DNA of 64,000 bases from Chloroflexota bacterium. GTDB taxonomy: Bacteria; Chloroflexota; Anaerolineae; Anaerolineales; E44-bin32. The notes under the pieces are model-generated. The model worked only from the letters and a program-made list of their open reading frames with translations. It searched no databases and was not told the DNA's origin. Below are positions 12,070 through 22,299 of the stretch, piece by piece. The position numbers and the translations under genes were made by a program. Position 1 is the stretch's first letter, and every line of letters starts with the position of its first letter. The stretch is from contig JADFRG010000008.1 in the NCBI GenBank assembly GCA_022561385.1, positions 1-64,000 of the forward strand. The letters are read 5' to 3'.

Positions 12070-13298
12070 ATAGGCAAAGGCTGACCTTTCTCGCCACTCT
12101 CGGGCTCACGCTGGGCGCAACGCTGGGTCTGGCGGCGCTGATCATGCGGCCGACCCGGCCAGAATTTTTCGATCTGGCACTCCTCTTCGCGATCTCGGGG
12201 GTAGGAGCTTTATTTGTAGGATTCCTATCGGTCCAGGTGGGCTGGTGGCGCCGCGCAACGAGCCTGACTCAGACACTGACCGTGGGCCACGTCCTGGCGG
12301 CCCTGTTCGGCCTGGTGATCGTGCTGCTCCTGGCCAGGCTGATGTTCATCAGCGAACATGATCTTGCGCTGGCGGCAGTGTTGTTATTTTTTGCAAGCAG
12401 CGTGTCGGTGTCGTTCGGATACTTCTTTTCGACCTCCATCACACAAAGGCTCAAGGAGCTCGATCGTGGCGCCAGGCGCTTGAGCGAGGGTCAATTTTCG
12501 GTGCGGGTTGATGTGGCTGGCCGGGACGAGGTGGCGGCGCTGGGCCGGGCCTTTAACGCCATGGCGGAACACCTCGAGAATGCCGAACACGAAGCCGAAA
12601 GATTGGAGAAGGCGCGGCAGGAATTCATTGCGGGTGCCTCGCACGACCTCCGGACGCCGCTGGCCTCTCTGCGCGCCATGCTGGAGGCGATCGCGGACGG
12701 AGTGGTGGAGGATCCCACGGACTACATTCGCCGCAGCCAGCGCGTGATCACTCAAATGAGCAACCTGACGGATGACCTGGTCGAATTGGCGGCGCTGGAC
12801 AGTGGGGCAGCACCCATGGAGCGAACGCCGGGGCCCATCGAGGAAGTTATCGAAACCGCATTGGAGGGTGCCGCGCTGAAGGCGGAATCAAAGGGGGTGG
12901 AGCTTACCGGCCCGACCCACAGCGACCTGCCCTTGATCCCGATGGCGGCCGACAAGATCGGGCGCGTCCTTCAAAATCTGCTCGACAACGCCATCGACCA
13001 CACCGAGCCGGGTGGGAAGGTAAACATTTCGGCCGTAGAACGGAACGGCGCCGTGGAGGTGACAGTGGGGGACAGCGGGATCGGAATTCGCCCGGAGAGT
13101 TTGCCTTACATCTTCGAGCGATTCTATCGCGGTGAGGAGAGCCGGCCGAGGGCGGATAATGACGCCGGCGGCTTGGGACTCGGGCTGGCGATCGCCAGAG
13201 AGCTGATTGAAGCTCACGGGGGGACTATATGGGCCGAGAGCGACATGCAAAGCGGAACCAACATCACCTTTTCGCTGCCCCAGGAGCGGCCCGAGTGA
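12066..13298 (+). CDS. HAMP-containing sensor histidine kinase
   Basis: [20 protein letters not shown] boxes; GTG start overlaps response-regulator stop. Confidence 0.92.
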
Positions 13299-13861
13299 AG
13301 TATTGGTTCCTGCTCTTGATAGGCCTGGCGGCATGTGTTCCTCAAAACGCGCCGGCTGGACCCTCTCCCGCCGTGACCGAACCCCCGACCAAGGTTGAGG
13401 CGCCGGCGCTGCCGGACTTGGGCCCCGCCCCCGAGCTTCAGAATGAAATCTGGCTCAATGTGGATCGCCCCCTGCGCCTGTCTGAGCTCCGTGGCAAGGT
13501 GGTGTTGCTCGAAATGTGGACCTTTGGCTGAATTAACTGTCAAAGGGTTATCCCGAGCCTCCGTGAGTGGCACCATCGATTGGCGGACCAGGGGCTGGTG
13601 GTTATCGGAAATCACTATCCAGAGTTCGGCTACGAGCGTGATCTGGCAAACCTCGAGCAGGCCCTCGTGCGGCTGGAGGTCAACTACCCGGTGGCTCAGG
13701 ACAACGATCGAGAGACCTGGAGCGCGTATGGGACGCGCTTCTGGCCGACGCTCTACTTGATCGACAAACGAGGCCGGCTGCGTTATCAGCACATCGGGGA
13801 AGGGCGATACGAGGAAACTGAAGCAGCAATCCAATCGCTGCTGGCGGAACAATATCCTTAG
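13295..13861 (+). CDS. Putative selenocysteine-containing thioredoxin/TlpA-like lipoprotein (UxxC); in-frame TGA at 13529-13531
   Basis: GTG at 13295 overlaps kinase stop. Signal peptide and lipobox LLLIGLAAC. The segments before and after the TGA share one frame and form one thioredoxin fold: [27 protein letters not shown]...[29 protein letters not shown]. Supplied track splits it into 13229-13531 and 13580-13861. Confidence 0.75.
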
Positions 13862-13961: not shown

Positions 13962-14210
13962 GTGGTTGTGCTATACTGCCGCGCTGTGGATGCTGGAGGA
14001 AAGACCACGCAACGTGCCGTGGTCTGGCTACGCCATCGCGGTTTGGATTCGTGGGTGGCGGACATCCTGGAGGCCGCTGGCCCCTTTACAACGATCTTAG
14101 CGCAGCTCAGCTATATGGCCGTACCGTTCCTTGGGGACGGCCTGGATGACATTGCACGCTCGCTGGAGCAGCCGGAGGGGCTTATTCAAGAGTTAAGGGA
14201 AGGCTCATGA
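13962..14210 (+). CDS. Small conserved hypothetical protein
   Basis: ORF abuts the next gene (stop overlaps its start); start uncertain, possibly a GTG or ATG at about 13985. Confidence 0.45.
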   Translation: MVVLYCRAVDAGGKTTQRAVVWLRHRGLDSWVADILEAAGPFTTILAQLSYMAVPFLGDGLDDIARSLEQPEGLIQELREGS

Positions 14211-14956
14211 CGGCCGTCGATCTGCAAGGCTTGCTGCTGCTTTTTGCATTCCTGGGGCTGATGCTGGGATCAGCCGCAACCAGCCGACGCTGGCCGGCTA
14301 CCTTTCGGCCGATCGCCGCCTTCGAAGCGCTTGGAAAGGCAATCGAACGTGCGGTCGAGGCGGGTGAACGGGTGCACGTATCCCTGGGCACCGGCTCTGT
14401 AATTGGTCCGGAGAGCGCGCCCGCATTTGCGGGCCTGGCTGCACTTTCCCGTATCGCACGCGCAACTTCCATGAGCGATCGTCCGGCCGTGGTTACCGCC
14501 GGCGACGGCGCCATGGCGATTCTTGCCCGCGACACGCTCCGCAGCTCCTACGGCGAGAGCGGATCGCCTGACCTTTACGATCCCACCTCCGGCCGCCTTC
14601 TCGGGCCTACTCCTTTCTCCTATGTCGCGGGTCTGCCCAGCGTACTCACCAACGAGGGTGTATCGGTGCATATGTTAAGCGGCTTCTACGGATTCGAAGC
14701 CGGTTTGGCAGCTGAATTCGGCGAGCGCGCGCGGGCCTTTGTTATCGGAGGGACCAGCGAGGTTCAGTCGCAAGCGTTGCTCTATGCGGTCGCGCGGAAT
14801 CCCCTGCTGGGCGAAGAAGTTTTCGCCAGCGGTGCCTATTTAGGCGCGGGCGAGCTCCACAAAGCCAGCCTCCGCACGCAGGACATCATTCGAATCGGGC
14901 TTATCGTGCTGATATTGCTGGGCGTACTAATGGCCACTTTCGAAGACCTGATATGA
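14207..14956 (+). CDS. DUF6754-like membrane protein
   Basis: TM at both termini; ERVHVSLGTGSVIGPESAPAFAGLAALSRIARATSMSDRPAVVTAGDGAMAILA; family name from recall. Confidence 0.6.
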   Translation: MTAVDLQGLLLLFAFLGLMLGSAATSRRWPATFRPIAAFEALGKAIERAVEAGERVHVSLGTGSVIGPESAPAFAGLAALSRIARATSMSDRPAVVTAGDGAMAILARDTLRSSYGESGSPDLYDPTSGRLLGPTPFSYVAGLPSVLTNEGVSVHMLSGFYGFEAGLAAEFGERARAFVIGGTSEVQSQALLYAVARNPLLGEEVFASGAYLGAGELHKASLRTQDIIRIGLIVLILLGVLMATFEDLI

Positions 14957-15582
14957 GGCTTTTCAGGGTCTCATCGCTCTGGGCGGCGGTGGCAGCCGCC
15001 ATTGGCGCCTTTGTGCTGCTGGGTTATTTCCTGGATTTCGAATTTATCCAAAATATCCGCTTGCTGTTCATGCGGTGGGCGGCACTCCTGGCCGCGGCCG
15101 CCCTGCTGGTGGGGCTGGCGAACCTGGTACAGGTGCATTGGCGCAAGTTGAGCCTGACGGACGAAGGCTGGATCTACAGCGCGGTGTTGATCCTGGCGTT
15201 GCTGGCCACGCTCATCCTGGCCCTGCTCCTTGGGCCGGACGACGAAGTGGCGCTGTTTATCGTTGAGAATTTCCAACTTCCGCTCGAAGCGGGACTCATG
15301 GCTCTGCTCTCGGTGACGCTGCTTGTCGCCGGGTTTCGCCTAGCGGCACGGCGCCGGGACGCGTTCAGTGTGTTGTTCCTGGCCACCGCCCTGCTGGTTT
15401 TGCTCGGTACAGGGCCCGTGCTGGGCGGCGCCGAAGGTCAAGTCATGCGCGATCTGCGAGCCTGGATTGCGCAGGTATGGTCTGCCGGGGGGGCGCGCGG
15501 TATCGCTCTGGGAGTCGCCCTCGGGGCAACAACCACTGGATTACGTGTACTGCTGGGGGCGGATAGGCCCTATGGATCTTAA
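14953..15582 (+). CDS. Multi-TM membrane protein of unknown function
   Basis: Repeated hydrophobic segments; start overlaps preceding stop. Confidence 0.6.
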   Translation: MRLFRVSSLWAAVAAAIGAFVLLGYFLDFEFIQNIRLLFMRWAALLAAAALLVGLANLVQVHWRKLSLTDEGWIYSAVLILALLATLILALLLGPDDEVALFIVENFQLPLEAGLMALLSVTLLVAGFRLAARRRDAFSVLFLATALLVLLGTGPVLGGAEGQVMRDLRAWIAQVWSAGGARGIALGVALGATTTGLRVLLGADRPYGS

Positions 15583-15585
15583 TTA

Positions 15586-17448
15586 GTGGAAAAAATTAAT
15601 TGTCCCATGTGCGGCAAGCCCAATCCCGGGGAGGCCGAAGAATGCGAACATTGCGGGGCGCGCCTGAAGCCACTCGAAGTGGGGGGCAGCTCCGAGGATT
15701 CGGAAAAATGGTTAGACCGCATGCGGGAAGATGTGGGGGAAGCTCCCACTTCTTCGGAAATGGGTGGGGAGGCCGTGAACGAGCCCGACGACACATCCTC
15801 CGAGGGACCCGATGATTTAGATTTCGATAAATTGAGGGCCGAGCAGACGGAGGAGAAGTTGCCGCAGGAGGCTGAGCCGGCCAAGGAAGACGTGCCGGAG
15901 TGGCTGCAGCGTATTCGAGAGAAGAAAGCCGAAGAACCGAAGGACCTTGTGGAATCGAACGAACCTGCACCCGAGCAGGCCCTGCGAGCAGCCGCCCCTC
16001 CAGCGGATGAAGTTGGATCAGAGACGGCAGGACCGGCGCCCGAAGAGGAGCTCCGGCCCGGGAGTGAAGCGGAGCCCGAACCGGAGTCTCCGGACTGGCT
16101 CGAGGAGGCAGAGGACAAGGGCGCCCTGGCTGAGGAGGAGAAGGATGCCGAGCCCGAGGCGGCCCTGCCACACGTCCCGGCCCTGATCGCAGGGGCGGAA
16201 AAACCACCGGAAGCCGAGCTCGGCGACCTGGGTCTTCCCGATTGGCTGGGGGAGATCGAGCCACTCGAAGACGAGGAACCCGAGGGGTCCGCCCCGGACC
16301 TGGCTCGCGCTACCCTCCCCAACTGGCTGGAAGCCATGCGTCCGGTGGACACCTTTCGCTCCGTAGTCGAAATCGCATCGGAAGACGATCAGGCGGTCGA
16401 ATCGGTGGGTCCGCTTGCCGGGCTGAGCGGCGTACTGCTCGCGGAGCCGATCGTGGCCATGCCGCGTACCTCGAGCGTCGGCTCCATGCAGCTCGACGTT
16501 TCGGAGCGCCAATACGATCAGGCAGAGCTGCTTCAGCGGCTGGTCGAGGAAGAAGAGCAAGAAGCGCCCGCCAAGCCCAAACGCAGGGCTCGTCTGGCAA
16601 TCTACCGCTGGGCGATTGCGGCCGTGATCCTGTTGGCCGTATCGCTCCCGATTGTTACCGGTGAGCCCAGCTTCGCCCTTCCCAGTCTTGAGCCGCGAGA
16701 ACTCGGGGCCTTGTTCAACCTGGTGGAGCAATTGCCGGCGGAGCGGCCGGTGCTGGTGGTCTTCGAATACGAGCCGGGGAATGCGGGCGAGCTCGAGGCG
16801 GTTTCGGGGGCGTTGCTGGATCAGATGATGGCCAGGGGGCTACTCCTGGCGAGCCTGTCGACCCGTCCGACAGGGCCCGCCTTAGCCAAACGCGCCATGG
16901 ATCCTTACGCGGAACGCCACGGCTACCAAGACGGTTTAGGCATCGTGCATCTCGGGTATTTGTCCGGCGGTCCGACCGCGGTACAGCTATTTGCCGCCAG
17001 CCCCCGCGATGCGGTGCTCAAGGGTTTTGCGCTGCCTGAGCAGGTACGGGAGTCGGGTCTAACGGCCTGGGATACCGTGGTGCTGGAGCGGGTTCAAGCG
17101 CTCTCAGACTTTGGAATGGTGGCTGTCATCACCGCCGACAGCGAGTCTGCACGCGTCTGGACCGAGCAGGCCCGTCCCTACATGGGGGACACACCGTTAG
17201 TGGTCGTATTATCCGCCGGTGCGGAACCGCTCATTCGACCCTATTTCGAAAGTGACGATCCAAAAATAAGTGGAATACTCTCCGGACTGCCGGCGGCGGC
17301 GGCCTACGAGCTACGCAACGGCCGCCTCGGACTTGCGCAGGCACGCTGGGACGCATTTGGCACCGGGATGTTGGCGGCGGAAATTGTGCTGCTGGCGGGC
17401 ATAGGTTATGGACTTCTCAATCTGTGGAGAGGCCGAAGCTTGGCCTAG
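15586..17448 (+). CDS. Zinc-ribbon protein with long acidic linker, one TM and C-terminal domain
   Basis: CPMCGKPNPGEAEECEHCG; Glu/Pro-rich linker; TM IYRWAIAAVILLAVSLPIV. Confidence 0.65.
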   Translation: MEKINCPMCGKPNPGEAEECEHCGARLKPLEVGGSSEDSEKWLDRMREDVGEAPTSSEMGGEAVNEPDDTSSEGPDDLDFDKLRAEQTEEKLPQEAEPAKEDVPEWLQRIREKKAEEPKDLVESNEPAPEQALRAAAPPADEVGSETAGPAPEEELRPGSEAEPEPESPDWLEEAEDKGALAEEEKDAEPEAALPHVPALIAGAEKPPEAELGDLGLPDWLGEIEPLEDEEPEGSAPDLARATLPNWLEAMRPVDTFRSVVEIASEDDQAVESVGPLAGLSGVLLAEPIVAMPRTSSVGSMQLDVSERQYDQAELLQRLVEEEEQEAPAKPKRRARLAIYRWAIAAVILLAVSLPIVTGEPSFALPSLEPRELGALFNLVEQLPAERPVLVVFEYEPGNAGELEAVSGALLDQMMARGLLLASLSTRPTGPALAKRAMDPYAERHGYQDGLGIVHLGYLSGGPTAVQLFAASPRDAVLKGFALPEQVRESGLTAWDTVVLERVQALSDFGMVAVITADSESARVWTEQARPYMGDTPLVVVLSAGAEPLIRPYFESDDPKISGILSGLPAAAAYELRNGRLGLAQARWDAFGTGMLAAEIVLLAGIGYGLLNLWRGRSLA

Positions 17449-17462
17449 GATGGCCTAGAGCC

Positions 17463-18197
17463 ATGGATACTGCAGACCTGATCGCAGGTTTCGTGGCCTC
17501 GGTCCTGACCATCATGGTGCTCAGCTACCTTATCGGCGACAATCCGCTATTCAAACTCGCCATGCACTTACTGATCGGAGTGGCCGCAGGATACGCAGGT
17601 GCGGTCGCAGTGCAGGGAGTGCTGATCCCAGGACTGGTCGAACCGATCCTGGAAGCGGGCCTGACTGGCCTGGGGAACCCCCAATTGATCGTCACCGGGA
17701 TCGTTCCACTCGCGCTGGTGTTATTGCTCTTCTTGAAAGTTGCGCCCTCGACGGCTCGATACGGCACGATCTCCATGGTGCTGCTGGTGGGGGTGGGGGC
17801 GGCGGTGGTCGTGGGGGGCGCCATAACCGGAAGCCTCCTGCCGCTGACGCTGGGTTCGATGGAATCCTTGAATCCCAACATCGTCAATCAACTCACCGGG
17901 GAATCGGGCTTGGAGCGTATGCTCAACGTCGGCATCGTGCTGATTGGCACGCTTACCACGCTCTTTTACTTTCAATTCACTATCCGGAAAGGCGAGGGCG
18001 AGGCACCGTTCGCGATTGTCGCCGGGGTGAACATTCCAGGTCCGCTGACCATCCTGCGGGGAATCGGGAAGGGATTCATTGCGGTGACCTTTGGCGTGAT
18101 GTATGCGGGAGCCGTAGCGGCCACGCTGATTGTTCTGGCCGAACGCGTGCAATTCATCTGGGACACGGTCACGGGCGTGGTGGAGAGCATCGGATGA
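17463..18197 (+). CDS. Multi-TM membrane protein of unknown function
   Basis: ATG 17463 in the 17424 frame; several TM helices. Confidence 0.6.
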   Translation: MDTADLIAGFVASVLTIMVLSYLIGDNPLFKLAMHLLIGVAAGYAGAVAVQGVLIPGLVEPILEAGLTGLGNPQLIVTGIVPLALVLLLFLKVAPSTARYGTISMVLLVGVGAAVVVGGAITGSLLPLTLGSMESLNPNIVNQLTGESGLERMLNVGIVLIGTLTTLFYFQFTIRKGEGEAPFAIVAGVNIPGPLTILRGIGKGFIAVTFGVMYAGAVAATLIVLAERVQFIWDTVTGVVESIG

Positions 18198-18201
18198 AGG
18201 G

Positions 18202-19959
18202 ATGAGCACGATGCACGAGGCGGATACCCTGTTGGCCGTGGATGTGGGAACGGTGAATACGCGAGCCAGCCTGTTTGATGTGGTGGATGGGCGTTACCGC
18301 ATGGTGGCCACGGGTCGCGCCTCTTCGACGGCTGGAGCCCCGTTGTTTGATGTTCGAGAGGGCATGCAGGTGGCTCTGGGCGAAGTGAGCGAGATCACCG
18401 GAAGGCCCTTTTTCGACGAATCAGAAGCGTTACTAATTCCCACTACCGGCGGCGGAGCCGGAGTGGATGCGTTTGTCTCGACTGCCTCCGCGGGCCCCCA
18501 CGTTCGGACGGTGCTGGTCGGGCTTATGCCGGGCGTTTCGATAGAAAGTGCCCGCCGCCTAGCCGGCTCGACCTACCTGGATGTTATCGATGAGATTGGC
18601 CTGACGGATCGAAGAGGAGAAGAGGCGCAAATCGATGTGATTCTTGCCGCGCGGCCGGACCTCATTTTCATGGTGGGCGGCACGGATGGCGGCGCCACGG
18701 CCAGCGTAATTCGACAGATCGAGACGGTAAGTTTGGCCACGAGCCTTCTTCCCACCGATCAGCGCCCGGCGCTTGTATTCGCAGGGAACACCAACCTTGG
18801 CGCGGCGGTTATGGAGCGTTTTCAGAACGGTGCGGCGGTAGCGCTGGTGCCGAATATCCGTCCCAGCCTGGAGCAAGAGGAACTCGAACCGGCGCGCCTC
18901 AAACTGGCGGAGATCATTGGTCAATTTCGCTCACAACGTATCGCTGGATTCGAAGACCTCAACGCATGGTCTGGCGGATATACGATGCTTACCGCGGACG
19001 CCTTCAGTCGCGTCGTGCGCTACTTGAGCCGGGTATATGACCCCGATAAAGGCGTGCTTGGGATTGACGTCGGTGCGGCTCACGTGACTGTAGCGGCGGC
19101 TTTCGACGGAAAGTTGAGCCGCAAGGTGCACTCAGACCTGGGTCTAGGGACCTCTCTGCCCGGCCTGCTTCGGCACACATCCGTATCCAACGTTTCGCGC
19201 TGGCTCCCCATGGAGGTCACAGAGGCCGAAGTACGCGATTACATCTTCAACAAGGCGCTTTACCCGGGCACGATTCCGGCTGAGCTGTCCGATCTCCATA
19301 TCGAATATGCGCTCCTGAGAGAGCTGATTCGAGCCGGCATCTCGCGCTCTAGAGGCGATTGGGCAGAGGGAGCCTCCTCCGAGCTGATGCCTCCCATGGA
19401 ACCCATTATCGCCAGTGGCGGGGCGATCGCGCGTGCGCCTCGTCCCGGATACGCCGCGCTGGCGCTGCTGGACGCGGTGCAGCCGCGCGGTATCACCACC
19501 TTGGTGCTGGATCCCTACAACCTGGTGCCCGCGGTGGGCGCGGCGGCAAAATTGCTGCCGATGATCACGGTGCAAGTGCTGGAGTCTGGCAGCTTCGTCA
19601 GCTTGGGAACGGTTGTATCGCCGGTTGGTCGGGGCCATGAGGGCCGACCCGTATTGCGTATCCGCATCGATCCCGAAAGTGGCGGAGAGCCGATTGAAGG
19701 CATCATCCGCTACGGTCAACTTGTTTTGCTTCCGCTTCGCCAAGGTGAACATGCTCGAATGACTCTGAGGCCGGAAAGAGGGTTTGACGTGGGGTTCGGT
19801 GGACCGGGCAAGGCGGGGGCGCTGCGAGTTTCGGGAGGGGCGTTAGGAGTGATCATCGACGCTCGCGGCCGGCCGATCGAATTGTCCAAAAATCCCGAAC
19901 GTCGAAGAGCGCTCAATCAAAAGTGGCTTTACGAGATTGGAGCCATGCTCGAGAGCTGA
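18202..19959 (+). CDS. Glutamate mutase L (MutL/GlmL)-like ASKHA-fold ATPase
   Basis: Phosphate-loop-like motifs LLAVDVGTVNTRASLFD and VLGIDVGAAHVTVAAAFDG; ATG 18202. Confidence 0.7.
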   Translation: MSTMHEADTLLAVDVGTVNTRASLFDVVDGRYRMVATGRASSTAGAPLFDVREGMQVALGEVSEITGRPFFDESEALLIPTTGGGAGVDAFVSTASAGPHVRTVLVGLMPGVSIESARRLAGSTYLDVIDEIGLTDRRGEEAQIDVILAARPDLIFMVGGTDGGATASVIRQIETVSLATSLLPTDQRPALVFAGNTNLGAAVMERFQNGAAVALVPNIRPSLEQEELEPARLKLAEIIGQFRSQRIAGFEDLNAWSGGYTMLTADAFSRVVRYLSRVYDPDKGVLGIDVGAAHVTVAAAFDGKLSRKVHSDLGLGTSLPGLLRHTSVSNVSRWLPMEVTEAEVRDYIFNKALYPGTIPAELSDLHIEYALLRELIRAGISRSRGDWAEGASSELMPPMEPIIASGGAIARAPRPGYAALALLDAVQPRGITTLVLDPYNLVPAVGAAAKLLPMITVQVLESGSFVSLGTVVSPVGRGHEGRPVLRIRIDPESGGEPIEGIIRYGQLVLLPLRQGEHARMTLRPERGFDVGFGGPGKAGALRVSGGALGVIIDARGRPIELSKNPERRRALNQKWLYEIGAMLES

Positions 19960-19962
19960 ATC

Positions 19963-21030
19963 ATGATCGCCAATCACATGCCGCGCGTCAGACACATCCT
20001 TCCCATGACCCGGGTGCTGCGCGAGCGGAAGCTCGAAGGAAACGCCATCTTGACCGTCAGAGTAAAGGAAAAGGTGCAGTCGACGGATGTGATCGCCGAA
20101 GTGCAGCCGCAGCCGCGACATCACTTTCTTGATTTAGCCTCCGCGCTCGGTGTGTCAGATGCGGAGGCGGCGCGCCTGCTGCGAGTGGATCTGGGAACCG
20201 AAGTGGAGGCCGGACAGGTGTTGGCCGGCCCGGCCGGGATAGCTCGGCGCACAGTTCGAGCCCCGGCCAACGGTAAGGTGCTTTCCCTCTCGAGGGGCCG
20301 CTTGCTCTTTGAGGCTCGCGAAGAGGCCCGCGTGGTTCACGCCGGTGTGCCGGGGGAAATCGTTGCCTCAGATGGATCGAACTCGATCACGATCTCGGTG
20401 GTCGGGGCGCTCGTTCAAGGAGCCTGGGGTAACGGCCGCCGGGGGTGGGGCGTGTTGCGCGATGTAGGCGGTAGCCGCAGCGCACGTTTGGAGCCGAGCG
20501 AACTGGACATGATTCTTCGCGGCGCGGTGGTACTCGTCGGAGTGGTAGATAATCCGAAAACTCTTCATCAAGGTACCGAAATTCCTATCCGTGGCCTGGT
20601 ATGTGGAAGTATGGCCTCTGAACTCATTCCCGTGGCGCTGCGTATGTCGTATCCGATTCTGCTGACCGAGGGGTTCGGCGCGACCCCAATGAACTCCCCC
20701 ACCTACGACCTGCTGAGCACAAACGCGGGAAGGGAGGCGAGCGTGGAAGCGTCACTGTTGGAACCTTATGGGACACAACAACCCGAGATTCTGGTACCGC
20801 TCCCTGCCACGCAAGACCTGACAAAAGTGGAACGAATCGTGCAACTGCAGCCGGGAGCGCGTGTACGGGCCTTGCGCGCGCCTCATGTCGGGGCAGTAGG
20901 TAATCTGCTGCATTTGATGCCAGGGGTCGAATCCTTTCCCAGCGGCATCCTGGCCCGCAGCGCGATGGTCGAATTGGAGGGGATTGGCTCGGCGCCCATC
21001 CCGCTTAGTAATTTGGAAGTAATCGCTTGA
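19963..21030 (+). CDS. Conserved hypothetical protein with lipoyl/barrel-like segment
   Basis: LGTEVEAGQVLAGPAGIARRTVRAPANGKVLSLSRGRLLFEA; follows MutL-like gene directly. Confidence 0.55.
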   Translation: MIANHMPRVRHILPMTRVLRERKLEGNAILTVRVKEKVQSTDVIAEVQPQPRHHFLDLASALGVSDAEAARLLRVDLGTEVEAGQVLAGPAGIARRTVRAPANGKVLSLSRGRLLFEAREEARVVHAGVPGEIVASDGSNSITISVVGALVQGAWGNGRRGWGVLRDVGGSRSARLEPSELDMILRGAVVLVGVVDNPKTLHQGTEIPIRGLVCGSMASELIPVALRMSYPILLTEGFGATPMNSPTYDLLSTNAGREASVEASLLEPYGTQQPEILVPLPATQDLTKVERIVQLQPGARVRALRAPHVGAVGNLLHLMPGVESFPSGILARSAMVELEGIGSAPIPLSNLEVIA

Positions 21031-21122
21031 TGAAAACTGGTTTGAATCTTGCAGCCGGTAAGGTACCCGATCGCGTTGCTACGCGTCCACGCACGTCTTA
21101 TTGGGCGTAAGGGGAGGAAATT

Positions 21123-21719
21123 ATGGCAGAAGACTTCGAAGTTACCGAGGGACTGCCCGAGGAGGGTGCGAATCGCACTTTTGTGATTGCGGCTGCGGGA
21201 CTCGGAGGCTTGATCGTGTTGAGCCTCATATGTCTGGGGGTATACGCCTTGATCCTTCAGCCGCGGCAGCGACAAGCTGCACTGCAGGAACCAACCAATA
21301 TCGTAATGACAAATACGGCCGTCGCCTTCAGTCTGACGCAGACTGCCGAGGCGGCAGATTTCACGCCTGTGCCTACGGAGCCGGCTCCAACCTCCACACC
21401 CTCACCCACCGACACCAACACCCCCGTGCCGACGCAGGTAGTCGTGTTGCCAACCGATACACCCACCACTACACCCACGCCTTTCACTACCTTGGCCACG
21501 GTGGCACCGCTGACGGCCACTGCCGCGGCTCAGATGACGCAAACCGCGCTGGCGATCGCAGGCGGCGGGGGATCCCCGACGCCCGCCCCAACGGCGCTGC
21601 CCGCGACCGGCCTGGGCGAGGATATCGGGCTACCTGGGTTGGCGGGATTGGCGGCATTATTCTTGGTGGCAATTTTCTTTAGCAGAAGGCTGCGCTCGAG
21701 AGCGACGCCGACAAACTAA
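21123..21719 (+). CDS. Pro/Thr-rich anchored protein with LPXTG-like C-terminal signal
   Basis: N-terminal TM; TPTP-rich stalk; C-terminus LPATGLGEDIGLPGLAGLAALFLVAIFFSRRLRSR. Confidence 0.65.
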   Translation: MAEDFEVTEGLPEEGANRTFVIAAAGLGGLIVLSLICLGVYALILQPRQRQAALQEPTNIVMTNTAVAFSLTQTAEAADFTPVPTEPAPTSTPSPTDTNTPVPTQVVVLPTDTPTTTPTPFTTLATVAPLTATAAAQMTQTALAIAGGGGSPTPAPTALPATGLGEDIGLPGLAGLAALFLVAIFFSRRLRSRATPTN

Positions 21720-21738
21720 TCTCACAAGGAAGTACATA

Positions 21739-21776
21739 AAAAGGGGGCCGCGCATTCAAGCGCGGCCCCCTTTTTA
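21739..21776. terminator. Bidirectional Rho-independent terminator
   Basis: aaaaagggggccgcgcattcaagcgcggccccctttttat. Confidence 0.9.
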
Positions 21777-21795
21777 TATGGATTTCAACGCCGAT

Positions 21796-22299
21796 CTAAA
21801 CTTGCAGGCTTAGCTTGGCTAATGTCTCGAACAGCTGCGCGACGCCGGATCCGTCCAGTGCGCTGGTCTCCAGGTATTGGGCCCGAAGTTCGTCGGCAAA
21901 TTCCTGTGCTTGCTGGGGCTGCTGTGTGCGCTCCAGATCGATCTTGTTTCCCACTACAACAAACGACTGCTGCTCGACGGCCTCGAGAATCTCGTCCCTC
22001 CAGCGTGCGAGGTTGGCGAAGGACTCAGGATCTGTCACGTCATATACCAGGGCCGACGCCCGGCTCCCGCGATAGAAGCCGGCGCGAATGAACTGAAAGC
22101 GATCCTGCCCCGCCATGTCCCAGATCGACAGCTTAACGGTCTTCTCCGGAAGGTCGACAGTCTGTGTTTGAAAATCGACCCCAATTGTGGCCACGCGAGT
22201 TTGTTCAAACTTTCCCTCGCAGAATTGCCGAATAAGCGACGTCTTACCGACGTTGCCATTGCCTGCAATGACTACCTTCAGGACGGGGACGCTGCTCAA
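21796..22299 (-). CDS. Rab/Ras-like small GTPase
   Basis: G1 GNGNVGKTS, G3 WDMAGQDRF, G4 VGNKIDLE, G5 ETSALDGSG. Confidence 0.9.
   Translation of the reverse strand: MSSVPVLKVVIAGNGNVGKTSLIRQFCEGKFEQTRVATIGVDFQTQTVDLPEKTVKLSIWDMAGQDRFQFIRAGFYRGSRASALVYDVTDPESFANLARWRDEILEAVEQQSFVVVGNKIDLERTQQPQQAQEFADELRAQYLETSALDGSGVAQLFETLAKLSLQV

Follow-up and report, generated by a model that had tools for sequence, protein, structure and literature searches.

A conserved Chloroflexota gene run places a MutL-type ASKHA ATPase among DUF6754 and other membrane proteins

What does a MutL-type ASKHA ATPase serve when its gene is surrounded not by glutamate mutase genes but by genes for uncharacterised membrane proteins? 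Such a case is found in a Chloroflexota bacterium, in a stretch of 64,000 nucleotides (assembly GCA_022561385.1, contig JADFRG010000008.1, positions 1 to 64,000; hereafter the window) that belongs to a contig of a 2.9-Mb genome, which is 92% complete. The features of the locus are as follows.

13962-21719, + strand: whole run g1-g8, eight genes, all open reading frames present at these positions
13962..14210, + strand: g1, 82-aa soluble protein without known family (open reading frame list; 4-bp overlap with g2)
14207..14956, + strand: g2, DUF6754 protein (Pfam PF20539, E 1.5e-29; AlphaFold2 model)
14953..15582, + strand: g3, multi-TM protein of about 5 helices without known family, between g2 and g4 in 21/21 loci with g2
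15586..17448, + strand: g4, zinc ribbon, acidic linker and TM-outer domain-TM unit (Pfam, motif scan, topology)
15886..16355, + strand: region of g4 with four PxWL motifs (VPEWLQRIR, SPDWLEEAE, LPDWLGEIE, LPNWLEAMRPV)
17463..18197, + strand: g5, protein of about 6 TM helices without known family (ATG at 17463)
18202..19959, + strand: g6, 585-aa MutL-like ASKHA ATPase with a C-terminal extension of ~120 aa (PF13941, E 5.9e-57)
19963..21030, + strand: g7, barrel-sandwich domain, alpha/beta domain (~188-263) and C-terminal KOW/SH3-like domain (~300-354) (AlphaFold2, pLDDT 92.4)
21123..21719, + strand: g8, acidic N terminus, TM helix, Thr/Pro-rich spacer, then LPATG, TM helix and RRLRSR tail (LPXTG_anchor match)
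~21734-21779, no strand: strong bidirectional terminator hairpin 3' of g8 (-38.6 kcal/mol, long G+C stem, A/T tracts)

The first-pass annotation had described eight co-directional plus-strand genes with mostly overlapping or near-overlapping junctions and a strong terminator, and this layout was confirmed. When starts and junctions were checked, g1/g2 and g2/g3 were found to share ATGA overlaps of 4 bp, followed by spacings of +3 (g3/g4), +14 (g4/g5), +4 (g5/g6), +3 (g6/g7), and +92 bp (g7/g8), and the hairpin also terminates a convergent minus-strand gene. Four of its product labels were likewise borne out: a zinc-ribbon/acidic/TM protein (g4, in which all three parts were found), a two-motif ASKHA MutL-like ATPase (g6, with conserved phosphate motifs), a lipoyl/barrel-like protein (g7), and an LPXTG-like protein (g8). 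A Pfam search of g1, g3, g5, and g8 matched no family. Clustering placed homologues of g1 of equal size immediately 5' of g2 in 54 loci, and profile searches did so in 75.

Two neighbours of the run deserve a record of their own. A Ras/Rab-like small GTPase (21796-22299, minus strand; Pfam Ras, E 1.8e-48) is convergent with the operon, and the two closest relatives (L101 and L102) have a similar-sized gene at this position. Upstream, a thioredoxin/AhpC-TSA-like lipoprotein (13229-13861, plus strand) carries an in-frame TGA (13529-13531) in the very place of its first catalytic Cys (WTFG-U-INC) and is probably a selenoprotein; a tRNA-Sec gene (72 bits) is present in the same genome.

Conservation of the gene neighbourhood, proposed at first pass as a check, proved strong. 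With profiles made from the window proteins, the order g2-g3-g4-g5-g6 was found in 21 of 21 loci with g2, in 14 families across Chloroflexota, and g7 followed g6 immediately in 31 loci. In Anaerolineales, the full g1-g8 run is constant and the flanks vary (phosphoglucomutase, PFOR, MeaB/B12-binding, RecF, and others). This recurrence across the phylum puts the run far beyond chance. Profile searches of 251 Chloroflexota genomes detected DUF6754 in 56 and MutL in 135 (104 above the cut-off); 55 of the 56 DUF6754 genomes also had MutL, on the same contig and no more than ~7 kb away in 44 and on separate contigs in 11. In the six split genomes that were fetched (G012, G015, G052, G078, G206, and G214), the DUF6754 contig starts or ends shortly beyond DUF6754, as a repetitive g4 would cause. 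Among 120 loci, many of them cut by contig ends, profile counts were 75 (g1), 80 (g2), 82 (g3), 104 (g4), 97 (g5), 120 (g6), 109 (g7), and 82 (g8). DUF6754 was absent from 14 control genomes outside Chloroflexota. Contigs were scanned with the g6 alignment, since that of DUF6754 was too variable, and the matches listed comprised 80 loci, all in Chloroflexota; the named-genome ATPases closest to g6 among the matches listed came from Anaerolineales/Chloroflexota metagenome bins. A plasmid search with g6 returned only two canonical GlmL proteins, at 23% identity.

The ATPase itself belongs to the MutL superfamily (193.9 bits against PF13941, cut-off 27) and, over an ASKHA core of ~450 residues, has the phosphate and adenosine motifs of GlmL: phosphate-1 D13/G15/T19, phosphate-2 D288/G290, and adenosine G405. 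Across 119 operon-type sequences, that of the window among them, conservation at these positions is ~87-100%, and canonical GlmL has them too; g6 is therefore likely to be active as an ATPase. It falls far below the cut-off of the GlmL equivalog NF040745 of NCBIfam (76.2 bits against 475). Canonical GlmL proteins measure 461 to 483 aa, whereas g6 has an additional tail of ~120 residues with an [IV][IV]DARGRP signature (IIDARGRP in the window). Nearly all of the 118 operon-type proteins match this signature exactly or almost exactly, and a few have a degenerate version; canonical GlmL lacks it. In the tree, canonical GlmL (rows L034, L099, and L036; three wrong-ORF long-branch rows were left out) and operon g6 formed separate clades, with support of 100/100 for the canonical group. 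A further ORF of ~1050-1270 aa (L071/L036, G184:C45) apparently fuses a canonical-type MutL domain to another domain. A Pfam search that allowed E values of up to 1 matched g6 to MutL alone and not to the FtsA family, the g6 profile gave only chance matches among PDB sequences, and a genuine FtsA is encoded elsewhere in the window's genome, beside FtsZ.

That the ATPase has no glutamate mutase partner, as had been claimed, was upheld. Of 251 Chloroflexota genomes, 4 had GlmE (PF06368) above its cut-off and 104 had MutL above its own. A profile search found no GlmE in the window's genome, so that g6 lacks the GlmE partner that goes with the GlmL equivalog; it has no GlmS partner either. Among the four genomes with GlmE, three (G089, G176, and G178) also had strong canonical GlmL matches, and in G176 GlmE lies beside a canonical GlmL of 461 aa, with a separate operon-type MutL 0.49 Mb away. 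Given the rarity of GlmE and its absence from the window's genome, g6 is, as judged by profile searches, not a glutamate-mutase factor.

For g2, the label of a DUF6754-like TM protein held for the family (103.4 bits against a cut-off of 27, profile positions 17-249 of 257) and fell short for the architecture, which is more than that of a mere TM protein. In the AlphaFold2 model (pLDDT 94.8, pTM 0.88), a TM helix (3-25) is followed by a Rossmann-like domain (~37-212) and a long TM helix (216-248), so g2 is modelled as a membrane hairpin holding a large Rossmann-like domain, which the flanking positive charges place in the cytoplasm by the positive-inside rule. A fold search against the PDB gave no match below E 1e-3, the best being generic Rossmann proteins (TM-score ≤0.5), and we claim no enzymatic function from such matches. 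The g2 profile matched no PDB sequence, and no paper in the literature collection searched mentions DUF6754, an uncharacterised family for which a structure model and partners are described here. Homology of g2 with the g4 outer domain (hhalign probability, 9%) or with g7 (0.2%) was rejected.

The anatomy of g4 goes beyond its earlier description in having an outer domain and an array of repeated PxWL motifs. A zinc ribbon (~5-28; the Pfam match is near the cut-off, E 6.8e-5) is followed by an acidic disordered linker (84 D/E against 24 K/R at 30-330), a TM helix (~339-357), the outer domain (~360-590), and a second TM helix (~593-613). From the distribution of charges and the positive-inside rule, the folded domain is predicted to lie outside the membrane. 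The PxWL motifs of the linker are at P104, P169, P218, and P245. Motifs of the [DE][LVI]PDWL type number 4 in the window protein and up to 46 in relatives, compared with fewer than one PxWL motif per protein in shuffled linkers, and the last copy, LPxWLxAMRP, is nearly invariant across Anaerolineae. In all, 842 PxW[LMVI] motifs were counted in 97 proteins, with a median of 34 residues between them. Of the 1211 Trp residues in linkers, 822 are inside a motif, and PxW outnumbers PxF in linkers by 829 to 30. Repeats are expanded to 18-46 motifs in L080, L100, L076, and others, and several split drafts break near g4. A 1455-aa TPR protein of the window's genome (L190:5386-9750, G000:C48), unrelated to g4 and encoded between H+-pyrophosphatase and NDK genes, has 13 PxWL motifs in a disordered middle, which raises the possibility that a receptor of the array is shared and lies outside the operon.

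The last two products have recognisable parts. In a Foldseek search at the domain level, the g7 model matched NusG of Thermotoga (2xhc, E 1e-6), RnfC (8rbm, 2.6e-3), and the Spt5 KOW domain (4ytl, 1.6 A over 62 columns), and its sequence weakly matched the RnfC barrel-sandwich (Pfam) and the NusG KOW domain. At the level of domains, g7 shares barrel-sandwich and KOW folds with domain 2 of T. maritima NusG and with RnfC, but it has neither the NusG NTD nor the Rnf redox domains, and the whole-chain TM-score is low (0.17). The score of g8 exceeded the NCBIfam LPXTG_anchor cut-off (17.2 against 15.9 bits), and with LPXTG, a hydrophobic segment, a positive C terminus, and two sortases encoded in the window's genome, it has the pattern of a sortase substrate. 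LPxTG is present in 52 of 82 homologues, in which the acidic N terminus, TM helix, and Thr/Pro-rich spacer are conserved; unlike a typical signal, the N-terminal TM helix is preceded by an acidic segment. These features suggest that g8 is a wall anchor.

Lineages that have exchanged parts of the run indicate which parts belong together. Four families (f29, f45, f47, and f21) have no g2, g3, or g5, and their g6 is preceded by a gene for a soluble protein that combines zinc ribbon and PxWL array but has neither TM helices nor an outer domain; in f31, the protein encoded at this position has one TM helix and no outer domain. This joint loss implies that the outer domain and the membrane base go together. 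Lineages without g2, g3, and g5 keep the array protein paired with g6 and usually with g7, and the array thus mostly goes with g6/g7. The reverse is seen in f20 (L074 and L075), in which g2, g3, and g5 are present and the TM helices and outer domain of g4 are kept without the array; because g6 and g7 are retained there, the array cannot be essential for g6 everywhere. g7 is missing beside g6 in Chloroflexia-like lineages (L076-L080 and L100). This pattern suggests that a soluble core containing the ATPase docks onto a base in the membrane.

The first-pass annotation had proposed that the ATPase works for an as yet undescribed apparatus of the membrane or envelope. Neither the search for a glutamate mutase partner nor that for conserved synteny spoke against it, and with gene order conserved and GlmE rare, it stands, on gene association, as the best reading. 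We give an even chance to a more specific form of it, in which the operon encodes one ATP-dependent, envelope-spanning complex or assembly scaffold, with g6 cycling rather than pumping. Gene association, domain anatomy, and conserved ATP motifs support such a putative complex. g2, g3, and g5 would form the base within the membrane; g4 would span it, exposing its zinc ribbon and PxWL array to the cytoplasm and its folded domain to the outside; and g8 would link the outer side to the wall. Cytoplasmic g6, with its steady partner g7, would dock on the base, for which the multivalent PxWL array is the likeliest docking tail, although it may bind either g6/g7 or a shared client adaptor. Without pumping any substrate, g6 would then use ATP cycling to assemble the complex, gather it into clusters, or switch its state, much like FtsA at division platforms and PilM at pilus platforms. 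The output would most likely be organisation of the envelope or assembly at poles or septa.

FtsA-type ASKHA proteins bind the tail peptide of FtsZ ([DE]IPxFLR). Of 30 Chloroflexota FtsZ proteins, 26 end in [DE]IP[ATS]FLR or a similar tail, in the same register as [DE][LVI]P-x-W-L, a resemblance that we regard as a lead. The window's genome encodes two divergent FtsZ proteins (L185 and L186), both with intact tails of the IPAFLRRR/VPAFLRRR type. FtsA connects FtsZ filaments to transmembrane proteins (PMC9098913). The FtsA-FtsZ and PilM-PilN pairs and the operon would thus have in common a protein of actin-like fold that works with membrane proteins, hypothetical docking by short motifs, and a PxWL motif that resembles the FtsZ tail. 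They differ in that g6 is of the MutL family, has no detectable sequence relation to FtsA or PilM beyond the ASKHA superfamily, and is only predicted to bind, and in that the operon has no FtsZ, pilin, or secretin. It is possible, but on balance doubtful, that the MutL-type ATPase works like FtsA/PilM by docking on the PxWL tail and driving assembly of the DUF6754 base, which would make it a third, independently evolved platform of ASKHA protein and linear motif.

The resemblance to the FtsZ tail could also mean that the operon is a module for division or cell shape, with PxWL motifs that let it recruit FtsZ/FtsA or compete with them. FtsA, found in 248 of 251 genomes, would be at hand, and the register of the motif matches the tail of the phylum's FtsZ, but Trp in place of Phe (829 PxW to 30 PxF) and Asp at x are consistent differences, short motifs easily coincide, no gene linkage to ftsZ was seen, and FtsZ/FtsA are universal in Chloroflexota whereas the operon is not; we consider this unlikely. 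Equally improbable is a primary transporter or secretion system with a channel made of g3 and g5, cargo selection by g4 and g2, and g6 as its power source. The two polytopic proteins, together with the outer domain and an ATPase in the cytoplasm, would suit such a system, but the membrane subunits matched no transporter family in Pfam or NCBIfam, the g4-g6-g7 core survives without the membrane base, and no ASKHA ATPase is known to drive transport.

Two further explanations dispense with a machine around g6. The genes might be co-transcribed and jointly conserved by shared regulation only, without one complex, as would be compatible with evidence that consists of gene neighbourhood, but g2/g3/g5 and the outer part of g4 are lost together and the order is fixed over 14 families, both of which favour physical association and make this quite unlikely. 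Alternatively, g6 could be a GlmL-like reactivase of a coenzyme-B12 mutase, with glutamate or methylmalonyl-CoA mutase as client, that merely resides in a membrane operon. Its place in the Pfam MutL family fits this, as does a sub-clade of Anaerolineales in which MeaB and a B12-binding subunit are encoded immediately upstream, in opposite orientation; we rejected these neighbours as a functional link, as they are divergent and confined to that sub-clade, and other genes occupy the place elsewhere. Against a reactivase stand the scarcity of GlmE, the lack of methylmalonyl-CoA mutase in operon-bearing genomes G072, G176, and G033, the many families that have the mutase (f17, f30, etc.) but no full-length operon-type MutL match, and the C-terminal extension that canonical GlmL does not have, so that this explanation is very improbable.

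An envelope-spanning complex organised by g6 would bear on a poorly understood subject, since Chloroflexota envelopes are little characterised and this conserved candidate machine has no counterpart in the libraries searched. The analysis also sets DUF6754 in its genomic context and models its structure with confidence. The g6 family is filed with glutamate mutase, and the operon-type copies in the phylum are therefore liable to be misnamed. Should the PxWL array indeed dock on the ATPase, the operon would represent an independent case of an actin-fold ATPase that organises a membrane complex via a disordered tail.
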